A stretch of DNA of 64,000 nucleotides from Propionispira arboris (GTDB lineage: Bacteria; Bacillota; Negativicutes; Selenomonadales; Selenomonadaceae). Location of the stretch: positions 124,001 to 188,000 of the forward strand of contig NZ_FNZK01000006.1 of NCBI RefSeq assembly GCF_900109225.1, given 5' to 3'. The notes under the pieces are model-generated. The model made no database searches and was not told the DNA's origin. It saw nothing but the letters and a program-made list of their open reading frames with translations. Within the stretch, counting starts at the first letter, position 1. Each line of letters begins with the position of its first letter. Shown here one piece after another: positions 18,827 to 28,328 of the stretch. The translations under genes and the position numbers were made by a program.

Positions 18827-20836
18827 TTATTGATCTGTATCCGTTGCCAATAAATATACTTTTTTCATAGTTTCTACGACATTTTGCGTCGTAAAGCCAA
18901 ATTTATCAAACAAGATTCCAGCCGGTGCCGATGCACCAAACCCTTTCATAGTAACGGTTGCTCCATCAATACCAACATATTTTCCCCAGCCAAAGTCAAT
19001 CGCTGCTTCAACCGCAACTCTAGCTTTCACAGCTCGAGGCAGAATGCTTTCTTTATAGGCATCCGTTTGTTCTTCAAACAGATCCATACAAGGCATACTT
19101 ACAACACGTACATCAATATTGTCTTTAGCCAGTTCAATTTTAGCATTTACCGCAAGTTCAACTTCTGAACCACTCGCAATAAGAATAGCATCTGGCACTT
19201 CTTTTGCAGCTTCCGCAATAACATAAGCACCTTTCAATGCTTCTTTACTGCTGCCAGCAAGCTGTGGCAGATTTTGTCTTGTTAAAACTAGTGCCGTAGG
19301 GGTATGTTTACTTGTCATCGCTAAGTACCAGCCAGCTGCTGTTTCTGTTGCATCTGCTGGTCTGAATACATTAAAGTTTGGCATAGCACGGAGCATTGCC
19401 AATTGTTCAATCGGTTCATGAGTTGGGCCATCTTCGCCGACACCAATGCTGTCATGCGTCAGTACATACGTTACAGGGATTCCCATAAGAGCCGCTAAGC
19501 GCGCCATTGGTTTTATATAATCACTAAAAACAAAGAATGTTGCAATATAAGTTTTAAGACCACCGTGAAGAGTAATACCATTGGCGATACCAGCCATAGC
19601 CAATTCTCTTACACCAAAGTGCAGGTTACGACCAATATAATTCTCTTTTGAAAAATCACTGATACCATCCATATGTGTCTTTGTGGATGGAGCAAGATCT
19701 GCACTACCACCAAATAGATTTGGCATGATATCTTTCAACTTATTGATTGCAATACCAGATAAATTCCGTGTTGCCTGCGGTTTATTTTCATAAGCCCAGA
19801 ATGCTTCATTATTTAATAATTTTCTTGCATCTACGTCATTGTGGAATGTATCCCATAATGTTTTGCAGTCAGGATATTTAGCACAATACGCTGCAAACAG
19901 CGTATTCCACTGATCTTCTGCCTGTGCACCTTGTTTTGCCAGTTCTTTATAATTCGCATACACGGCATCTGGCACATAAAACGGATCAAGTTTTTCCCAT
20001 TTCAAGTTTTCTTTTAACGCTTTCACATTGTCTTCGCCCAGTGGTTCACCATGTGCACTTGCTTTCCCTTGTTTAGCCGGACAGCCAAAACCAATCTGTG
20101 TTTTTACAGTAATAAAGGATGGTCTTGTTTTATCAGCCTTCGCTGTTTCAATTGCTTTACCAATTTCCACTAAGTCATTGCCATTTTCAACTATAATGAT
20201 CTGAAAACCAAATGCGGCAAGACGTTTTTGCACATCTTCTGTAAAAGCAAGATCCGTACTGCCTTCAATAGAAATTTTATTGCTATCATAAAATACAATT
20301 AATTTACTTAAACCCAATGTACCTGCCAAGGAAAAGGCTTCCGAAGAAATACCTTCCATTAAACAGCCATCGCCGCCCAGTACATATGTATAATGGTCAA
20401 CAATTGGGAAATTTTCTTTATTAAATGTTGCCGCCAAATGTGTTTCCGCCATAGCCATACCAACAGCCATAGCCATACCAGCACCTAATGGTCCAGTTGT
20501 AGCTTCAACCCCTACCGTATGACCATATTCCGGATGGCCTGGAGTCAGTGACCCATCTTGACGAAAATTCGCCAAATCATCAACTGTTAAACCATAACCA
20601 AATAAATGTAAAAGTGAATAAAGTAGCGTTGAACCATGTCCCGCCGAAAGAACAAATCTATCACGATTAACCCATTTCGGATTTTTAGGATTATGATTCA
20701 TGTGCTTTGCCCATAATTCATAAGCCATTGCTGCACTGCCCAGCGGCAAACCTGGATGCCCTGACTTAGCTTTTTGTACTGCATCCGCTGCTAAAATACG
20801 GATTGCATTTACCGATGTCATATCGATGTTACTCAT
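18827..20836 (-). CDS. tkt: Transketolase
   Basis: Thiamine-diphosphate enzyme of the non-oxidative pentose phosphate pathway, transferring C2 units between ketose and aldose phosphates. The 669-residue product is full length: N-terminal ThDP domain with GHPGLPLG (residues 27-34) and GDGCLMEG (155-162), the central pyrimidine-binding domain with GVGEDGPTHEPIEQLA, and a C-terminal domain. The ATG at 20836 follows AAGGGGAA. It is monocistronic, between its own terminator and the PTS operon terminator. It could serve sugar phosphates from the adjacent PTS locus, but that is inference. Confidence 0.96.
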   Translation of the reverse strand: MSNIDMTSVNAIRILAADAVQKAKSGHPGLPLGSAAMAYELWAKHMNHNPKNPKWVNRDRFVLSAGHGSTLLYSLLHLFGYGLTVDDLANFRQDGSLTPGHPEYGHTVGVEATTGPLGAGMAMAVGMAMAETHLAATFNKENFPIVDHYTYVLGGDGCLMEGISSEAFSLAGTLGLSKLIVFYDSNKISIEGSTDLAFTEDVQKRLAAFGFQIIIVENGNDLVEIGKAIETAKADKTRPSFITVKTQIGFGCPAKQGKASAHGEPLGEDNVKALKENLKWEKLDPFYVPDAVYANYKELAKQGAQAEDQWNTLFAAYCAKYPDCKTLWDTFHNDVDARKLLNNEAFWAYENKPQATRNLSGIAINKLKDIMPNLFGGSADLAPSTKTHMDGISDFSKENYIGRNLHFGVRELAMAGIANGITLHGGLKTYIATFFVFSDYIKPMARLAALMGIPVTYVLTHDSIGVGEDGPTHEPIEQLAMLRAMPNFNVFRPADATETAAGWYLAMTSKHTPTALVLTRQNLPQLAGSSKEALKGAYVIAEAAKEVPDAILIASGSEVELAVNAKIELAKDNIDVRVVSMPCMDLFEEQTDAYKESILPRAVKARVAVEAAIDFGWGKYVGIDGATVTMKGFGASAPAGILFDKFGFTTQNVVETMKKVYLLATDTDQ

Positions 20837-21143
20837 TTAATCATTCCCCTTTTGATCAACAATTTTGCTAGATAAACCCAACATAATTTAATGATACAAT
20901 ATGTCGGCTTAAAAGTACAGAATTTAGAAAAAATCAAATACTCCATCTTACCTCATTATTTAAATATAATACTCCTATTGTCAGTGTACTCTTCCGATTA
21001 TAAAAAAGGCCTTAGCCAAAATGCTAAGACCTTTAAGCTGCACAACTGTATGATTAAAAATCCAATACATATCACATAAAATACTTAGTTCAACCAAATC
21101 TCTCCTTAAGATCCAAACTTTTCTTTACAATTTTAAGTATTGA
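20837..21143. other. Intergenic region between tkt and the PTS operon end
   Basis: This 307-base gap holds the PTS-operon terminator at 21005-21034. The rest must contain the tkt promoter, but I cannot pick a convincing -35/-10 pair. No further gene was seen. Confidence 0.5.
21005..21034 (-). terminator. Terminator of the polyol PTS operon
   Basis: On the minus strand AAAGGTCTTAGC and GCTAAGGCCTTT pair (one mismatch) around a 6-base loop and run into a T-rich tail. It lies 110 bases beyond the srlE-like stop codon. Confidence 0.8.
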
Positions 21144-22169
21144 TTAATACATTCCAATGCTAGCTGCATATGCAATCAATACCGCAAGTGGACCTGTAAT
21201 TACACGTGAATATAATACAGCCGGAACTCCAAGTTCTATTGTTTCTGGATCGGCTTCGCCCAAGCTAAGTCCTACTGGTACAAAGTCACCGCCTACCTGG
21301 GCATTAATGGCAAACAATGCTGGTAACGCATATTGCGCTGGAATATGCCCTAATCCTATTTCCACACCTAAAAGTGTACCTACAACCTGCGCAATAACTG
21401 CACCTGGTCCAATTACTGGCGAAATAAATGGCAATGAGCATACTACCGAAATGACTAGCATCCCCGGCAAGGTACTTGCTAATGGTGAAATTGTTTTTGC
21501 TATTACATCCCCAATGCCCGATGCACTGATAATACCGATTAACATACTTACAAATGCCATAAATGGTAAAATAGTTTTTACCACCATATCTATCGTTTCA
21601 CGACCAGCTTGGTAGAATTTATTTACGACTCCACCAACACCAATTCCTAATTTTGTTATAAAGTTCTTTTCTTTTCCTGCATTCATCTTTGCAAGTTCCG
21701 CTCTTGCTTGTGCTTTAGTTTTGGGCGCATTTGGCACTGCTTCATTAGCGGGACTTACATTGCCTGCTTTAAAACCATCTTTTGCAGTCAGTGGAGTTTC
21801 TTCTGCAGCATACGTAATTGTTTCTACAGTTACTGCCGATACATATAAGCTTTCAGTAATATATTGCGCCAATGGTCCAACATTACCAACTGGCGTTAAA
21901 TTTACAGTAAAGATTTTTTTCTTCGGATATACACCGCATCTCGCTGTGCCACCACAATCAACAACGGCTACCAAAGTTTCTATATCCGGTACAGCTGAAC
22001 TAAATCCATCAATTGCTTCACAGCCTGTCATTTCTGCAATTTTTGCCGCAACTGGATGAATTCCACCACCAGTAACGCTAATGATTTTATTACAAGTTTC
22101 TGTTGGTTGAATCGTTAAAGGTCCACCCCAGCCACCCTTGCCTTTAGATATTGTAATTGCCTTATACAT
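21144..22169 (-). CDS. srlE: PTS glucitol/sorbitol-family IIB(C) component
   Basis: Membrane-bound IIB part of a glucitol-family phosphotransferase permease, passing phosphate from IIA to the incoming polyol. The 341-residue product begins with the IIB domain: [11 protein letters not shown] (residues 12-22), a conserved [20 protein letters not shown] block and [17 protein letters not shown] (the phosphocysteine region). After a linker at about residues 135-165 there is a membrane region with about four hydrophobic segments (including [20 protein letters not shown]). Last gene of the operon, 30 bases from the IIC gene. The family is certain; the substrate is not, because no sorbitol-6-phosphate dehydrogenase is nearby. 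Confidence 0.9.
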
Positions 22170-22199
22170 AAATTACTCCATCCTTTCTATAGACCAATT

Positions 22200-22721
22200 T
22201 TAATTTTCTTCTTTAGCTTTCATATACGCATAGATTTTTTCTGTTACAACCCCGCGAATAAAGATAACGACAATCCCGACTAAGAAATACCGTACCGCTA
22301 AGTCACCAAGTGGCAATCCCAACGTCGTAATTCCGGCTGCAATTCCCATGTATACGAAAAGTTCGCCACCATTTGCGTGCGGGAATAGTCCCGTGATTGG
22401 ATGTACAAAACTTACCGCTGCATCATAAAATGCTGGTTTGTGCTTTGCCTGTACAAATCTGCCAAAACTATAACACATTGGATTTCCTAGAAATAGCACT
22501 GCTAACACTGGTAACACTGTATATCTCGTAATAATGTTTTGTGTTGCTCGTTGTGCTAATTTATCTACCTGTTCTTCACCAATTAATTTAATAACTGAGC
22601 TTACAGCGGTCATTAAAACCACAATTAAAGGAATAATTCCTGCCACCCAACTTGCAAAAGTACCTGCACCTGCTTTAAAGACGTCCATAAATCCATTGGC
22701 TAAACCTGCAATAAATTCCAT
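22200..22721 (-). CDS. srlA: PTS glucitol/sorbitol-family IIC component
   Basis: Integral membrane translocation subunit. The 173-residue product has about four hydrophobic stretches, the N-terminal GFMDVFKAGAGTFASWVAGI and a conserved central YSFGRFVQAKHKPAFYDAA and HANGGELFVYMGIAAGI, typical of SrlA. It has a good GGGAGG site. It is separated from the upstream yjbQ-like gene by 274 bases with a hairpin and an inverted repeat, so it may be separately controlled. Confidence 0.9.
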   Translation of the reverse strand: MEFIAGLANGFMDVFKAGAGTFASWVAGIIPLIVVLMTAVSSVIKLIGEEQVDKLAQRATQNIITRYTVLPVLAVLFLGNPMCYSFGRFVQAKHKPAFYDAAVSFVHPITGLFPHANGGELFVYMGIAAGITTLGLPLGDLAVRYFLVGIVVIFIRGVVTEKIYAYMKAKEEN

Positions 22722-22813
22722 AATGCTTTTACCTCCCTAACTTTTTCAAAAAATCATCGATGACACTTACCAAACTTGACCGTACATATTGCACTCTTTA
22801 GAATTTTCCGATT

Positions 22814-22854
22814 ATTGTTTTGTAAAAACATGCTATATTTTTTTATAAAACAAT
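22814..22854. repeat. 15-bp inverted repeat upstream of srlA (possible operator)
   Basis: ATTGTTTTGTAAAAA (22814-22828) and TTTTTATAAAACAAT (22840-22854) are inverted copies matching at 14 of 15 positions with an 11-base spacer. It lies about 95-135 bases upstream of the srlA start. AT-only arms without a T-tract argue for a protein-binding site rather than a terminator. No clear promoter was seen next to it. Confidence 0.5.
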
Positions 22855-22895
22855 CGATTGCGTAGAGAGTTTTCAAATTTTTTATGTTAAGACTA

Positions 22896-22939
22896 AAGGC
22901 TTCTTATATATTCTATTTTTTGCAATAGTAAGAAGCCTT
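22896..22939 (-). terminator. Intra-operon hairpin after yjbQ-like gene (possible partial terminator)
   Basis: Perfect 11-bp arms AAGGCTTCTTA and TAAGAAGCCTT flank a 22-base loop. The minus-strand sequence after it is T-rich only in part (TTTAGTCTTAACAT), so it may be a weak terminator or an mRNA processing or stabilising hairpin that splits expression of the enzyme genes from the permease genes. Confidence 0.5.
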
Positions 22940-22995
22940 CAGCCCATAAAATGGATTAACACAGAAAATTATTTTGTACCCTATAAAAAACTTTT

Positions 22996-23511
22996 TTATT
23001 CCCCCATGACAACAATCTTACATTGCCTATCTCTCGGACGATTTGGATCCCAATCAATAAAGTAGTAGTAGCCTGTAACTTGATTAATCTGCAATACACC
23101 ATTTTCAATAGCACTTGTTACACTTTCTCCTACAAGGGATGCTTTAATATGAGCTTCTGTATTTAATAAAGATCTTCTGTCTGGTACCAATGCTGCATCA
23201 CAATCTTTTTCACCAAAAGCAACATGTTCCGGTCCTGGATGATAATATTGTCCTTCTGTCAAACATCTTGGAACAATTTTTTCTAATACATTATTAAAAT
23301 CAACTTGCAAATACTCATCACCACAATAATTTGTATCATGAGAATATTCTTCATATATTACCGAACACGTTGTATGTGGTGTTGTGATTACACAAATACC
23401 ATTTTTCACTTTACTTTTTTCAATAACTGCTCTAACTTCTTTTGTAATTTCATGATAAGATGCTCTGTTTCCATTAGATCTCACTATCAGTTCTTCAATA
23501 TATACTGTCAT
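22996..23511 (-). CDS. YjbQ/UPF0047 family protein
   Basis: Small alpha/beta protein of the family often labelled secondary thiamine-phosphate synthase, for which the physiological role is unsettled. The 171-residue product carries the family motifs TTPHTTCSVIYEE (residues 43-55), NTEAHIKASLVGES, and a C-terminal DxxxPRxR-like stretch (DWDPNRPRDRQ). It is somewhat longer than the common 130-140 residues. The start is 2 bases after the isomerase-like gene, so it belongs to the polyol operon. Its job there is unknown. Confidence 0.8.
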   Translation of the reverse strand: MTVYIEELIVRSNGNRASYHEITKEVRAVIEKSKVKNGICVITTPHTTCSVIYEEYSHDTNYCGDEYLQVDFNNVLEKIVPRCLTEGQYYHPGPEHVAFGEKDCDAALVPDRRSLLNTEAHIKASLVGESVTSAIENGVLQINQVTGYYYFIDWDPNRPRDRQCKIVVMGE

Positions 23512-23512
23512 T

Positions 23513-24208
23513 TCAAATCCCCCTATCTTCCTTCGCTTTTTTAATCACTTCAATCATGTCTTTTACCATTTCTTTTGGATCTTCAGCACACACAATCCCA
23601 CTTGTACCACCGGTTCCATCTGCACCTTCCATAATTGTACGATACACATCATCCGCAGTACTAATTCCGGCCGCTTGCATAACCAAAATATTCGGATTTA
23701 TTTTTTTGATACTGTCAGTTGTTTGCTTGATATAAGCTTGATCACTCGTGTTCCCTGTACCGATAAGTTCAGTCGGTTCACATAAAATAATATCTGGATC
23801 GAGCAAAGCAATTGCTTGTGCTTCTTTAACAGAATCAGCACAGACAACTGTATACATACCTATCTCTTTAGCTCTTCCAATCGTTTTTACTAAATCTACT
23901 AATTTTAAAGAATGTTCAGCATGATTTAGAAATACTGCTTTTGCACCAGCTTCTTTTAACGCTTCTGGCACTAAGTATCCCATACCACGACCAGCTTTTA
24001 GTGCATCCATATGTTGTGCTGTTACAATAAGATTTTTTGTTTTTTCTGCAATCAATCGAATATCCGCAAAGGATGCTGTAAAAAATACATCAAAATCCTT
24101 GTCTGCTGCCCATTTATCAGCCTCTAGTGCCAATTCTAATGATTTCTTTCCATAAAGATATGATTTAAGGTTTACCATAAAAAATGGTGTTCTGATTTTC
24201 TCCTCCAT
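23513..24208 (-). CDS. Triosephosphate isomerase-like protein
   Basis: A 231-residue TIM-barrel protein resembling triosephosphate isomerase. The catalytic positions look retained: N13/K15 (MVNLKSY), H95 in LNHAEHS, E143 in CEPTELIGTG, and a phosphate-binding loop GADGTGGTSG. The flanking sequences differ from housekeeping TpiA (for example NHAEH instead of GHSERR). Such paralogues in tetritol operons isomerise erythrulose 1-phosphate (EryH/LerI type). Its place between an aldolase and a YjbQ gene in a PTS operon suggests isomerisation of a sugar phosphate from this pathway; the substrate is inference. Confidence 0.75.
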   Translation of the reverse strand: MEEKIRTPFFMVNLKSYLYGKKSLELALEADKWAADKDFDVFFTASFADIRLIAEKTKNLIVTAQHMDALKAGRGMGYLVPEALKEAGAKAVFLNHAEHSLKLVDLVKTIGRAKEIGMYTVVCADSVKEAQAIALLDPDIILCEPTELIGTGNTSDQAYIKQTTDSIKKINPNILVMQAAGISTADDVYRTIMEGADGTGGTSGIVCAEDPKEMVKDMIEVIKKAKEDRGI

Positions 24209-24219
24209 GTTTTCATCTC

Positions 24220-25080
24220 CTATTTATTGTATTTTACTGTTTCAAATACTTGATAGTAATGTTTCAAACAATCTTTAATGCCTTGTTTTGCCTGTGCTAT
24301 TAATTCATAATAATTTTCTGCAGTTGCTATAGATATTTTATCTTTAGCAGCAAGGACAAAATCCGTATATATATTAATTTTAGCAATTCCACTTGTTGCA
24401 CATCTATTTAAATTTGCATCACCAGAAGATGAACCTCCATGCAATACAAGTGGTGTATTCGTACTTGCTGCAATTTCTTCTAATCTTTTAAAGTTAATAA
24501 CCGGTATCCCTTTATAGGTACCATGTGCTGTTCCGATAGATATCGCCAATGAATCAACCTTCGTTTGTTTACACATTTCCACCGCTTCTTCTGCCGAGGT
24601 ATAAATGGAATCATCATCCTGCCCAGATCCACCACCTTCGCCTACACTACCAACAAGAGTTCCAGTACCAACATGTCCGATTTCAGCTTCCACGACAACA
24701 CCTCTTGCATGTGCATACGCCACTACTTCTTTAGTGATCACAATATTTTTTTCTAACACTTCTTGAGAAGCATCGATCATAACCGATGTAAATCCTAAAT
24801 CAATTGCTTGCTTTACTACTGCTAAAGATGTGCCGTGGTCCAAATGCAATACCACAGGAACATCTACTTTTTCCCCATAAAATTTACCAAGTAAAGCTGC
24901 TTCTTCTAAAGATAAATAATCCTTATGCGCCTCAGCGTAACTTAAGATAATAGGCAATTTCATCTCACTGGCAACCTCTGTATGGGCCATTACAGAGGTC
25001 CAGTCAAAGAAATTAGCAGACGGTATAGCGAACTTTTGCTGTTTGGCTGTTTGCAAAAGTTCTTTTGATGTAACTAACAT
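24220..25080 (-). CDS. Class II (zinc) ketose-bisphosphate aldolase family protein
   Basis: A 286-residue class II aldolase of the fructose/tagatose-bisphosphate family. Catalytic and zinc residues are in place: D81-H82 (LHLDHG), EAE at 131-133, H186 (SIGTAHGTYKG) and H214 (LVLHGGSSSG). It would cleave a ketose (bis)phosphate to dihydroxyacetone phosphate and an aldehyde. It sits between the COG4091-like oxidoreductase and the TIM-like protein, consistent with a dedicated catabolic path. True substrate (fructose-, tagatose- or a shorter-chain phosphate) cannot be read from sequence. Confidence 0.85.
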   Translation of the reverse strand: MLVTSKELLQTAKQQKFAIPSANFFDWTSVMAHTEVASEMKLPIILSYAEAHKDYLSLEEAALLGKFYGEKVDVPVVLHLDHGTSLAVVKQAIDLGFTSVMIDASQEVLEKNIVITKEVVAYAHARGVVVEAEIGHVGTGTLVGSVGEGGGSGQDDDSIYTSAEEAVEMCKQTKVDSLAISIGTAHGTYKGIPVINFKRLEEIAASTNTPLVLHGGSSSGDANLNRCATSGIAKINIYTDFVLAAKDKISIATAENYYELIAQAKQGIKDCLKHYYQVFETVKYNK

Positions 25081-25179
25081 AATTTCACCCCTTTTTTTGT
25101 AATTTTACGCAATATTAACAATTTAACTTACATTACACTAGCTAAACTATAGGAGGAACAAGCATGCTGATAAATCATT

Positions 25180-26475
25180 TTATTTGCCGTACATTTTATC
25201 TTGTTCTTGACGTAATTTGTAGATAAGCGTTGAAGTATCAAGTTGAACCATATCTTTCGTAATAAGTTGACCTTTCTTCACATCTTTCAACATTTTTGTG
25301 TTTTTATTTACTAAACCATACGGTACATATCCTTTTGCATCCGATTCTGTTGCTGTTGCGATAGAACCATACGTTGTAAAACCGCCTATACCATCAATGG
25401 TTTGACCAGCTTTTAAATCAGTTTTGGCTACTGTGATACATTCACTTACAAGGCCATCCATTGGTACGATCGTAGTTTCACCATCAATTACAGCTTTTGC
25501 TACAGTTAATGGTGTTTCAAGGTTACATAAATGGTATGGACGATATAGAATCCATAATGGTCCATTCCCCATGCTATGATATCTCATTTGATATGCAATT
25601 TCTTCATTTTCAGTAGACACAGCAACAAATACACCCGGAGCAATACCATTTACATATTCAACCACGCCATGTTTATTTAACACACCACCATCTTGTTTCA
25701 ATCTGCACAAATCAGCTAATCCTTTTACATCAGATACGATCCCATGACCACCGATTATATCTGGAACTAAACCCGTAGCATTAGACATAGCAGTCATTTC
25801 TACCATTGTTTTTGTACCATCTTTAAAGGAACAAAGCATTTTAGGGCTCATTTTACGGCGAGTTGCCTCTTCTAATACAGAATCTGGATTGCAATCATAA
25901 TCCAATTTATTATTTTTACCTTTACCCATTACTTTTACATCCATCCCTATTGCCTTTGCAAAACAATATAATTCCATTACTGCACCAGGTTCATCACCAG
26001 CAGAGCCTGTATAAATCACGCCTTGTTGCTGCGCTAATTTTTTGAGGTAGGGTCCAATAACTACATCGGTTTCTACATTTAACATGACACAATGTTTACC
26101 ATTTTTCATTGCATCCGTTGCTACTTTTGCTCCTACATCAGGTACACCAGTTGCATCAATTGCACACTCTACTAAGTTTGCTTGCGATACTAAATTCGCA
26201 TCTGTTGTTGCTACAAATTTACCCATTTCCATCATCTTATTTGCCTCAGTAAGAGTATTGACAATTGCAATTTGATCGTCTTTAATACCAGCATAATTAA
26301 AAGCATGTATAGCATTCTCTATCGCAATATCAGATACAATTGCTGGTGTGATACCTTGCATCAATGCCATTTGTGTTACCATGCCTCTCCCCATTTGCCC
26401 TGCACCTACGATACCTGTACGGATAATTTTTCCTTCTTGTTGACGTTTAATCAATTTTTGATTCATGTTTAACAT
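25180..26475 (-). CDS. NAD(P)-dependent oxidoreductase with C-terminal SAF domain (COG4091-like)
   Basis: A 431-residue protein with an N-terminal Rossmann fold (GIVGAGQMGRGMVTQM), a central homoserine-dehydrogenase-like region and a C-terminal SAF domain (from about residue 340: CITVAKTDLKAGQTIDGIGG, VKKGQLITKDMV). The start is the ATG at 26475, since AGGAG is about nine bases upstream; an upstream GTG is too close to it. Members are called predicted homoserine dehydrogenases, but threonine-pathway genes are absent here. In this PTS operon it may oxidise a polyol phosphate in place of the missing SrlD; that is inference. Confidence 0.75.
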   Translation of the reverse strand: MLNMNQKLIKRQQEGKIIRTGIVGAGQMGRGMVTQMALMQGITPAIVSDIAIENAIHAFNYAGIKDDQIAIVNTLTEANKMMEMGKFVATTDANLVSQANLVECAIDATGVPDVGAKVATDAMKNGKHCVMLNVETDVVIGPYLKKLAQQQGVIYTGSAGDEPGAVMELYCFAKAIGMDVKVMGKGKNNKLDYDCNPDSVLEEATRRKMSPKMLCSFKDGTKTMVEMTAMSNATGLVPDIIGGHGIVSDVKGLADLCRLKQDGGVLNKHGVVEYVNGIAPGVFVAVSTENEEIAYQMRYHSMGNGPLWILYRPYHLCNLETPLTVAKAVIDGETTIVPMDGLVSECITVAKTDLKAGQTIDGIGGFTTYGSIATATESDAKGYVPYGLVNKNTKMLKDVKKGQLITKDMVQLDTSTLIYKLRQEQDKMYGK

Positions 26476-26504
26476 ATAAATCACTCCTGTTATTCATTTT
26501 TTAT

Positions 26505-26873
26505 TTAAAATATTTCTATAGTACCGCCTTTAACTAAGTCTTTCGATGTAAATTCATCCCCTTCAATCATAATACAGCCTGGTCTTTCTGGTTCATTACC
26601 ACCCTTAAAAGACAACGTACAATGTCCAAGTTCTCTTAATGTATGCAAGGCTTCGTCACCAATCGCTGTAATTGTAAATACCTTGTCACAAAGAATCAAT
26701 GTATCTAACACATTGATATCAGCTAAAAGTGGAGCTACTCTATGCAAAACTGAAATTTCAGCCAGCTCTGGTGGTGCTGTTTCATTAAAGATGATAATAA
26801 AGTTTAAATCTTTATCATCTAATAATGCTGTTACTTCTGACCCCCATCCAGTAATTTCAGCATTGTATTTCAT
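26505..26873 (-). CDS. srlB: PTS glucitol/sorbitol-family IIA component
   Basis: Soluble phosphocarrier IIA of the glucitol family, accepting phosphate from HPr. The 122-residue product starts MKYNAEITGWGSEVTALLDD; the ATG at 26873 follows AAAGGAGG at proper spacing, so the longer frame is rejected. The conserved ELAEISVLHRV (probable phospho-histidine region), AIGDEALHTLRELGHCTLSF and PGCIMIEGDE blocks identify SrlB. Next to gutM. Confidence 0.9.
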   Translation of the reverse strand: MKYNAEITGWGSEVTALLDDKDLNFIIIFNETAPPELAEISVLHRVAPLLADINVLDTLILCDKVFTITAIGDEALHTLRELGHCTLSFKGGNEPERPGCIMIEGDEFTSKDLVKGGTIEIF

Positions 26874-26962
26874 TGAATGACCTCCTTTGATAGATTTTTT
26901 AATCATCTTATATGATAAAACTCACACCTGTTTTAAAAACACCTATAAGTTTTTTCATCTCA

Positions 26963-27352
26963 CTAAGTTTTTATGGAGTTTAAACGCATATCCAAAGCAT
27001 CAATTGCTTGAACATGAGCTTGGTAAATCTTTTGTTTTTTTTCTGGTAAAGCCATATATTCTGCTTTTAAATCATAAATATTTTTTCCAATAATATCATT
27101 AAGCTCTTTAAAACCATTAAATATGGTAAAACCTTCCATGATTTCACCACCTGTAATTTCCCCTTGGTTATTACAAGCAATAACCACAATATTACCAGGT
27201 CTCAATTTTGATTTTCTACTACCAATACCCACATTTCCTATTTTATGCAGCCTTCGCACCGCTTTTTTATATTGCTTAACTTGAAGATATGTCCCACTAG
27301 CTTGAATAAGCATAAAAATTAGTAAAACTGCAATCAATGTTGTAAACTCCAT
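26963..27352 (-). CDS. srlM: Glucitol operon activator GutM/SrlM
   Basis: A 129-residue protein with one N-terminal hydrophobic segment (FTTLIAVLLIFMLIQASGTYL) followed by a cytoplasmic part with VGIGSRKSKLRPGNIVVIA, typical of GutM. In E. coli GutM activates the glucitol operon. The ATG at 27352 follows AGGAGGG; the longer frame overlaps the regulator gene and lacks a site. It starts 13 bases after the SorC-family regulator gene, so the two are cotranscribed. Confidence 0.85.
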   Translation of the reverse strand: MEFTTLIAVLLIFMLIQASGTYLQVKQYKKAVRRLHKIGNVGIGSRKSKLRPGNIVVIACNNQGEITGGEIMEGFTIFNGFKELNDIIGKNIYDLKAEYMALPEKKQKIYQAHVQAIDALDMRLNSIKT

Positions 27353-27365
27353 ATAAATAACCCTC

Positions 27366-28328
27366 CTACATTTCCAATAATACTTTGGCACAATCAATAT
27401 CGGTAATTAATATATTCAAGAATTCCCCTTTTATCGCACCATATACAGCTTTTGCTTTTTGTGCGCCACCAGCAATTCCAATTCGTTGTGGTACTTTTTT
27501 TAATTGATCAATTGGCATTCCTGCAACTCTTTCATTAAATTCTCTGAATTTTTCAACTTTTCCAGATTCATCAAAAAACTGTAATGCTATATCACCAACA
27601 GCGCCCAGCTTAACAAACTCTTCTAAAATATTTTCATCTACATACCCCGTATGCATTAGAGTGGAACCTATTCTATCAGGTACACCTATCCCCATAATGA
27701 CTGTATTTATTTTTCTAAATATTTTGAAAATATTTTTCACTGACTTTTCCATCATAAATCCAGTTAATACATCAGCATTAGAAAATACTGCTGGAGCAAA
27801 AAATTGTATACAATCACCGCCAAACATTTTAGCCATTTTCATTGCAATATAATTTGAATGAATATCCGGTCTACTTTCACCCACACCACCAACAATTGGT
27901 ACAAAAGTACATTTGATTGGTTCTTCAATACATTCCATTTTTGTGAGATTTTGCAATGTCATCCCCATTGTAACGCCAACGTACTCACCATCTTCTAGCA
28001 ATTTTCCTAAAAAATCGATGGACTCTTCAACTAATTTACTGTTTATCCCTTCATTTCCATTTACTATGGAACTCGAATCAACAATAATAACCTCTTTTAA
28101 ATTGAATTTTTTTTCTAATTCACGTTCCATTTTACCAAAGGTAAGACCATAAGGACTTTTAATTTCAAATTTTACAATACCTTGTTCTTTTCCCATTTTT
28201 ATCATACGAGAAACAGATGGTCTTGATATCTCAAGAAAATCGCAAATTTCTTGTTGACTCATATTATCTTCATAATAGAGACTACAGCATTTGAATATCA
28301 TTCGTATATCATCAATGATTTTTTTCAC
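27366..28328 (-). CDS. SorC/DeoR-family sugar-binding transcriptional regulator
   Basis: A 320-residue regulator with an N-terminal helix-turn-helix (MSQQEICDFLEISRPSVSRM, residues 23-42) and a C-terminal sugar-phosphate-binding domain of the SorC type (GVTMGMTLQNL, VPIVGGVGE, MGIGVPDRIGSTL, IGIAGGAQKAKAVYGAI). It is the promoter-proximal gene of the polyol PTS operon and presumably controls it in response to a phosphorylated intermediate. A palindrome abutting its promoter -35 could be its own operator. Confidence 0.9.
   Translation of the reverse strand: MKKIIDDIRMIFKCCSLYYEDNMSQQEICDFLEISRPSVSRMIKMGKEQGIVKFEIKSPYGLTFGKMERELEKKFNLKEVIIVDSSSIVNGNEGINSKLVEESIDFLGKLLEDGEYVGVTMGMTLQNLTKMECIEEPIKCTFVPIVGGVGESRPDIHSNYIAMKMAKMFGGDCIQFFAPAVFSNADVLTGFMMEKSVKNIFKIFRKINTVIMGIGVPDRIGSTLMHTGYVDENILEEFVKLGAVGDIALQFFDESGKVEKFREFNERVAGMPIDQLKKVPQRIGIAGGAQKAKAVYGAIKGEFLNILITDIDCAKVLLEM

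Follow-up and report, generated by a model that had tools for sequence, protein, structure and literature searches.

A DXR-II/DRL oxidoreductase in a glucitol-type phosphotransferase operon of Propionispira arboris and its possible role in branched-polyol catabolism

The window analysed here is a stretch of 64,000 nucleotides from Propionispira arboris (contig NZ_FNZK01000006.1, positions 124,001 to 188,000 of the forward strand). Its minus strand carries, from position 28328 to 21144, a nine-gene operon with the transport genes of a glucitol-type phosphotransferase system (PTS) and no polyol-phosphate dehydrogenase gene. Which compound is imported, and how is it oxidized? The place expected for the dehydrogenase is occupied by an oxidoreductase of the DXR-II (or DRL) family, which makes the system more specific than first described. 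DXR-II/DRL enzymes are alternative reductoisomerases of 1-deoxy-D-xylulose 5-phosphate (DXP) and turn it into 2-C-methyl-D-erythritol 4-phosphate (MEP) in isoprenoid synthesis. From the sequence evidence, we give an about even chance to the reading that the operon serves the catabolism of a branched polyol, most likely 2-C-methyl-D-erythritol, via MEP and DXP.

A DXR-II family protein in a glucitol-type PTS operon

The first-pass annotation of the window described the oxidoreductase as a COG4091-like SAF protein and a candidate for the oxidation step. The candidacy stands, but the specific identity is DXR-II/DRL. The protein scores 214 bits against Pfam family PF21135 (cut-off of 27), and 3upl and 3upy are its only PDB matches at E ≤ 0.001 (best E of 2.1e-103; residues 5–433, 429 residues). 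DRL_cat is the only Pfam domain matched, with no separate match for a C-terminal SAF domain, but the C-terminal part of the protein aligns with 3upl up to chain residue 437. The family had also been held to lack a settled role; however, 3upy is the DXR-II of Brucella abortus, a structure of the family has been solved, and some of its members rescue Escherichia coli deficient in dxr (PMC3847144). The listed start of the gene, GTG at 26484, falls within a ribosome-binding-site-like AGGAG, and the start was therefore moved to the ATG at 26475 behind this motif, which is likely to be the true one.

Residues G121, T229, H250 and R320 of the Brucella enzyme set DXR-II apart from the uncharacterized DLO1 and DLO2 groups, and K191 and K193 anchor fosmidomycin (PMC3847144). 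Brucella G121, K191, K193, T229, H250 and R320 correspond to G118, K188, K190, T226, H247 and R315 of the window protein (numbered from the GTG at 26484). Conservation was counted in 122 aligned rows, namely the window DRL and 121 of the 124 DRLs surveyed below (those of at least 400 residues). The equivalents of G121, K191, K193, T229 and R320 occur in all 122, and that of H250 in 109; two more distant control proteins from the same class lack four (L063) and two (L064) of the six residues. Membership of DLO1 or DLO2 was rejected, as the signature residues are those of DXR-II. The window oxidoreductase is thus, by its sequence, a full-length DXR-II/DRL member which shares with the Brucella enzyme (3upl/3upy) its homology over the full length and the listed substrate-binding and dimer residues.

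One position differs in a way that bears on the cofactor. The end of strand β2 of the Rossmann fold is Asp52 in the window DRL and Ala-Arg-Arg in the Brucella DRL. An acidic residue at this point usually indicates NAD+. Asp or Glu is found here in 113 of the 122 DRLs: 90 of the 91 linked to a PTS or a kinase versus 23 of the 31 unlinked (p = 6e-5). Because an acidic residue ends β2, the window DRL probably uses NAD+, as would suit catabolism.

The gene order proposed in the first-pass annotation was confirmed: the open reading frame (ORF) listing of the window gives nine minus-strand ORFs in one consistent order, with the class II aldolase and the triose-phosphate isomerase (TIM) homologue following the oxidoreductase. 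The features are as follows.

27366–28328, minus strand: SorC/DeoR-type sugar-binding regulator, first gene of the operon (Pfam Sugar-bind PF04198, 197 bits)
26963–27397, minus strand: GutM-like protein (Pfam GutM PF06923, 87.7 bits; under the NCBIfam PRK10234 cut-off, 55.3 versus 148)
26505–26906, minus strand: glucitol-type PTS IIA (Pfam PF03829, 98 bits; under the NCBIfam cut-offs)
25180–26475 (to 26484 as the ORF is listed), minus strand: DRL/DXR-II (Pfam DRL_cat PF21135)
24220–25080, minus strand: class II aldolase of the F_bP_aldolase family, putative ketose-1-phosphate aldolase (Pfam PF01116, 270 bits)
23513–24208, minus strand: archaeal-type TIM homologue, putative ketose-phosphate isomerase (NCBIfam PRK04302, 190 versus a cut-off of 132)
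22996–23511, minus strand: long YjbQ/UPF0047 protein of 171 residues (Pfam PF01894, 81.5 versus 27 bits; TIGR00149 narrowly missed, 65 versus 67.75)
22893–22942, no strand: inverted repeat with 14-nt arms and 22-nt spacing, inside the 274-bp gap between the YjbQ and IIC genes
22200–22721, minus strand: glucitol-type PTS IIC, SrlA (NCBIfam NF049923, 238.7 versus a cut-off of 150)
21144–22169, minus strand: glucitol-type PTS IIB, SrlE, last gene of the operon (NCBIfam NF049924, 480.8 versus a cut-off of 400)
21005–21034, minus strand: terminator-like hairpin of 12 pairs with a T-rich tail, between the operon and a transketolase gene

The genes are tightly packed apart from the gap before IIC (intervals between the listed ORFs of −32, 56, 20, 99, 11, 1, 274 and 30 bp from SorC to IIB). 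A promoter-like TTGAAA-17-TATAAT lies ahead of the SorC gene on the minus strand (28492–28464), although such sites are no more numerous in the scan than expected by chance (37 versus 44.5 in shuffled sequence). Terminator-like sites number eight versus 5.2 ± 2.1 in shuffles, and the hairpin at 21034–21005 has the longest stem of the eight. The next gene on the same strand, at 20836–18827, encodes a transketolase that passes the ordinary TIGR00232 cut-off; it was considered as an operon member and left out because the terminator-like hairpin separates it from the operon. Rfam at its gathering thresholds gave no regulatory RNA in the operon.

The operon shares with the gut/srl glucitol operon its IIA, IIB, IIC and GutM, all four assigned with Pfam and NCBIfam. 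IIB and IIC score above the srlE and srlA equivalog cut-offs, and IIA and GutM above the Pfam gathering scores but below the NCBIfam cut-offs. Unlike gut/srl, the operon has no srlD: no polyol-phosphate dehydrogenase family was matched among its nine proteins with either database, which bears out the first-pass description of a polyol-type PTS operon without this gene, and DRL, aldolase, TIM and YjbQ genes are present instead. The same genome contains a separate operon (L192, contig C21) in the order SorC-GutM-IIC-IIB-IIA-SDR-PfkA, likewise headed by a SorC-type regulator, in which the short-chain dehydrogenase/reductase (SDR) passes the NCBIfam model of sorbitol-6-phosphate dehydrogenase (406 versus a cut-off of 304 bits). 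Three glucitol IIB matches were found in the genome in all. A third glucitol-PTS cluster (L191:3455–16480, contig C36) includes transaldolase-like, split transketolase, glycerol-1-phosphate-dehydrogenase-like and NagD-like genes, and two for RpiB.

The genome also carries the classical reductoisomerase, DXR-I, with both of its Pfam domains, and a full-length match to the domain of the DXP synthase DXS. The pattern expected of a sole biosynthetic reductoisomerase, a MEP pathway lacking DXR-I, is therefore not that of this genome, and the idea that the window DRL is its only DXR was rejected. Because DXR-I and a full DXS match are present, the DRL would be dispensable for MEP synthesis, and a biosynthetic role for it is unlikely. 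The window DRL thus differs from the Brucella enzyme in its PTS operon, the accompanying DXR-I and the acidic end of β2, as well as in the oxidative direction proposed below.

DRL loci in other genomes

Within the class, 41 of the 300 genomes searched have a DRL_cat match, and within the phylum 39 of 398. Wider stretches around some of these DRL genes, from both the class and the phylum, were inspected (32 + 16 + 1, the last being L228), together with seven of 111 matching plasmid records. The loci from named genomes are the best 80 of at least 552, which biases the sample towards the window's DRL. Altogether 136 loci were annotated, of which 133 had a DRL of more than 300 bits and more than 330 residues; 124 remained after the removal of sequences identical in the C-terminal 380 residues, and the 84 of these flanked by 5 kb or more in each direction form the base for the neighbourhood counts. 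Genes were called by ORF selection and phmmer against a small reference set, and those with no reference were left unnamed.

At least two glucitol-PTS genes lie within 8 kb of the DRL gene in 68 of the 84 loci. In three others an FGGY kinase takes their place, and the remaining 13 show neither (two of the 13 with E1 genes and two with YjbQ). Since the combination of DRL with a glucitol-PTS core recurs in many genera, the arrangement is not a matter of chance.

The genes that accompany this core fall into exchangeable modules. The loci with PTS genes and those with the kinase make up 71 linked loci. Genes for E1 alpha and beta resembling those of pyruvate/acetoin dehydrogenases, as parts of E1-E2-E3 sets, occur in 24 of them, and TIM and YjbQ genes in 15, of which 13 have the aldolase as well; the window belongs to this aldolase-TIM-YjbQ group. 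The two modules alternate: E1 and YjbQ occur together in one linked locus (Fisher table 1, 23, 15, 32; p = 0.0075, with no correction for phylogeny). In four loci counted as lacking the E1 module (L034, L109, L139 and L143), E1, E2 or E3 genes lie at the edge of the 8 kb or beyond it. In some Selenomonas loci, for example L067, the TIM-YjbQ and aldolase genes are arranged around their own GntR/UTRA regulator, next to the PTS-DRL genes. An unchanging PTS-DRL core followed by modules that replace one another points to a single DRL product that can be cleaved in several ways.

Of the 75 genomes found to contain DRL_cat, 34 were examined for DXR-I and for IspF, the sole later MEP gene used in these checks. 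IspF was found in all 34 and DXR-I in 21; no DXR-I was detected in the other 13, where the second DXR-I domain, checked along with DXS in these 13 genomes and the window genome, agrees. Seven of the 13, all with clear DXS matches, come from a single Selenomonas-type genus within the family to which the window organism belongs. Their DRLs, 74.6–76.0% identical to that of the window, are placed inside the PTS-linked clade and have probably, to judge from gene content, replaced DXR-I. As DXR-I-less genomes with IspF and DXS carry such close relatives, the window's DRL clade is plausibly competent for DXP chemistry. In the remaining six (G335, G471, G588, G629, G667 and G412) IspF is present, DXR-I gave no match, and the matches to DXS are weak and transketolase-like; DRL regions from five of the six were inspected, each of these genomes has a DRL gene beside E1 genes (L196, L197, L198, L200 and L203), and G588 also has a second DRL gene without E1 (L199).

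A small protein of 95–149 residues, putatively a zinc ribbon with a pattern like LFCLHC...C..C, is encoded near DRL in 21 matches (L122:11383–11754, L127:2535–2873, L107:8469–8756 and 18 other loci). It also adjoins some TIM-YjbQ sets that are without DRL, and the one such protein scanned had no NCBIfam match.

Proposed pathway and alternatives

For the pathway itself we infer the substrate, the direction, the cofactor and every catalytic step from sequence. The glucitol-type PTS would import 2-C-methylerythritol as MEP. The DRL, running in the reverse of the isoprenoid direction, would then oxidize and rearrange MEP to DXP with NAD+, and the cleavage of DXP would yield a C3 phosphate together with a C2 unit. 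The first-pass annotation envisaged an oxidation followed by aldol cleavage and the isomerization of a C3 or C4 phosphate. However, a DRL also rearranges the carbon skeleton, so that a branched polyol phosphate is expected as the substrate and DXP, rather than a C3 or C4 intermediate formed by simple oxidation, as the product.

In many relatives the cleavage would fall to a thiamine-dependent E1-E2-E3 complex converting DXP to glyceraldehyde 3-phosphate and acetyl-CoA. As an acyloin, DXP is open to thiamine-dependent cleavage into glyceraldehyde 3-phosphate and a C2 unit. Purified pyruvate dehydrogenase (PDH) forms 1-deoxyxylulose from pyruvate and glyceraldehyde, and mutants of aceE, unlike wild-type aceE, raise DXP about 20-fold (PMC3424233). 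Because the same bond is formed here in the other direction, E1 chemistry at the DXP bond has precedent. The complexes near DRL resemble pyruvate and acetoin dehydrogenases, with DXP as the proposed substrate, and are absent from the window operon.

For the window operon we propose two carbonyl shifts, C2 to C3 and C3 to C4, by the YjbQ-like protein and the TIM homologue; cleavage of the resulting 5-deoxyketopentose 1-phosphate by the aldolase would then give dihydroxyacetone phosphate (DHAP) and acetaldehyde. These steps within the aldolase-TIM-YjbQ module are tentative, and the assignment of the first shift to YjbQ is a guess. A similar logic operates in the Lsr pathway of autoinducer 2 (AI-2) catabolism (LsrG, LsrF), which brings a carbonyl of a 1-deoxypentulose phosphate derivative into the position adjacent to the CH2OP group and cuts the chain to DHAP and a C2 unit; the enzymes are unrelated to those of the window and the entry step differs.

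The aldolase retains the metal-site motifs LDHG, GTAHG and HGGS in the alignment; the DPR motif, which we take to be part of the second-phosphate site of class II aldolases, is missing from it and from all 20 module aldolases compared, which lends mild support to a ketose 1-phosphate substrate without a second phosphate. The F_bP_aldolase family has 15 matches in the 4.26-Mb assembly. The TIM homologue has 1hg3 as its closest PDB match, its catalytic residues N13, K15, H96 and E144 are invariant in 20 module homologues, and the highest-scoring TIM match in the genome is a different one, on contig C23. In YjbQ, residues H46, H58, D59, H96 and H121 are invariant in 20 homologues. A Foldseek search with a YjbQ model (pLDDT of 69) gave 17 matches at E ≤ 0.001, all to YjbQ-like, uncharacterized or putative thiamin phosphate synthase structures, and hence no hint of the reaction.

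A number of observations weigh against this route. The DXR equilibrium favours MEP. The association of an acidic β2 end with linkage is no longer significant when the test is restricted to loci with 5 kb on both sides (71 of 72 versus 11 of 12, p = 0.27), and six of the nine exceptions form one clade, mostly Tissierellia; moreover, the DRLs of the DXR-I-less Selenomonas genomes retain the Asp although they are expected to be biosynthetic, a misfit to a strict rule. The DPR motif is also missing from four of eight other aldolases of the window genome, being present in L237–L240. None of the modules sought was found in 25 of the 71 linked loci; the four loci noted above for E1, E2 or E3 genes at or past the 8-kb edge are among these. 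Three loci were scored for E1: the alpha subunit stays under the PDH equivalog cut-offs, the beta subunit exceeds the threshold of a subfamily model bearing the name PDH E1-beta, and none of the models is named for a DXP-cleaving complex. Finally, the aldolase-TIM-YjbQ set is found away from DRL, next to either a galactitol-type PTS or a mannose-type PTS with ribulose-phosphate 3-epimerase (RPE). Since it occurs beside other PTS types, the set is not specific for DXP and probably has ketose phosphates at large as its substrates.

Examples with a galactitol-type PTS come from Lacticaseibacillus paracasei and Enterococcus faecium, where IIC is 41–43% identical to a Pfam EIIC-GAT protein. The set of E. 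raffinosus adjoins a sugar-binding regulator, and the only PTS nearby, about 3 kb away, is of the beta-glucoside type. YjbQ is also found beside RPE and HxlB, either with TIM (L234–L236) or with no TIM annotated. The window genome itself has a second aldolase-TIM-YjbQ set behind a mannose-type PTS and RPE (L190:4292–9731, contig C36), with a YjbQ 78% identical to that of the window. On plasmids of L. paracasei and E. faecium (L226:8001–10326 and L227:8001–9773), a galactitol-type PTS is followed by genes for a long YjbQ, RPE and 6-phospho-3-hexuloisomerase; neither TIM nor aldolase is annotated in the vicinity, and these genes represent a further putative sugar pathway.

The best-surviving alternative, which we nevertheless consider unlikely, is that the substrate is a hydroxylated analogue such as apiitol, from which the DRL would make a pentulose phosphate of the D-xylulose 5-phosphate type. 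This product would enter the pentose phosphate pathway or be isomerized and cleaved to DHAP and glycolaldehyde. Transketolase occurs in six of the 71 linked loci and FSA or transaldolase-like proteins in five (three of the five also with E1), and these suit a pentulose 5-phosphate better than DXP. Transketolase directly follows DRL in Pelosinus and Lucifera loci, a position which methylerythritol catabolism leaves unexplained and which is mirrored by a split transketolase in L066; FSA and transketolase close the DRL-PTS cluster of Ligilactobacillus salivarius. The pairing of the aldolase-TIM-YjbQ set with RPE and a mannose-type PTS in the window genome and the ordinary score of the window transketolase point the same way, although the terminator-like hairpin sets that gene apart. 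On the other side, the window DRL carries the DXR-II signature, and its close relatives seem to provide MEP in genomes without DXR-I. Xylulose 5-phosphate would make a dedicated aldolase module needless, and an E1-E2-E3 complex acting on it would be expected to yield glycolyl-CoA, a poor product.

A distinctly unlikely reading takes the DRL as a plain dehydrogenase of a linear polyol phosphate (such as that of a tetritol or pentitol), replacing srlD without any rearrangement of the skeleton. Its place in a glucitol-type operon that lacks srlD agrees with this. So does the resemblance of the TIM homologue to EryH of erythritol catabolism, itself a TIM homologue, in a pathway with an FGGY kinase and a GlpD-like dehydrogenase; the two systems share a sugar-binding regulator as well, but the window operon differs in its PTS, DRL and aldolase. 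The family is, in addition, related to homoserine dehydrogenases (PMC3847144). However, the substrate-binding residues of DXR-II are kept, and the sorbitol operon of this genome uses an SDR for an oxidation of that kind.

It is less probable still that methylerythritol is salvaged for isoprenoids, with the PTS making MEP for IspD or the DRL acting as a backup DXR. One genome of the window's family, which also has DXR-I, carries its PTS-DRL genes upstream of ispD-ispF, on the same strand and at a distance of 117 bp (L056:8019–10718), and the 13 of 34 DRL genomes with no detected DXR-I, six of which also lack a full DXS match, all have IspF. The window genome, however, has both DXR-I and a full DXS match, and the aldolase and isomerase-like genes of the operon have no known isoprenoid use. 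An ordinary sorbitol operon with its dehydrogenase elsewhere is very improbable, and sorbitol was rejected as the substrate: IIB and IIC do pass the srlE and srlA models, but the sorbitol operon on contig C21 has its own PTS, SDR and PfkA, and DRL, aldolase, TIM and YjbQ have no known part in sorbitol use.

Implications for the DXR-II family

We recognized no published account of this operon or of methylerythritol catabolism in a partial literature collection lacking most subscription journals, in keeping with the first-pass remark that the combination could not be matched to a described pathway. The DXR-II family has been defined from 53 sequences, 11 of them shown to be functional; it coexists with DXR-I mainly in Firmicutes, and its distribution has been read mainly as gene loss (PMC3847144). 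The DXR-II of Finegoldia magna is active, and other MEP genes and mevalonate genes were reported as not found in that organism (PMC3847144). The term PTS is absent from the main text of that article. A catabolic role would explain both the patchy distribution of DXR-II and the activity of the Finegoldia enzyme.

A wider and more tentative proposal is that the original role of DXR-II is catabolic, as an NAD+-dependent MEP oxidoisomerase that reverses the first half of the MEP pathway and is followed by interchangeable ways of splitting DXP. The isoprenoid-making DXR-IIs would have been recruited from it, a direction proposed because the DXR-I-less Selenomonas sequences nest inside the PTS-linked clade. 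In the six genomes that lack both DXR-I and a full DXS match, the PTS-DRL-E1 operon may supply the isoprenoid precursor, either by methylerythritol salvage or with E1 acting as DXS.

Methylerythritol occurs free in plants and is a product of isoprene oxidation. If the proposed catabolism is correct, the operon would equip anaerobes and soil bacteria to use this compound. It would give a function to genes now labelled as SAF-domain proteins and a first role to test for the long YjbQ proteins, and the presence of a DXR-II gene alone would be no proof of isoprenoid synthesis.

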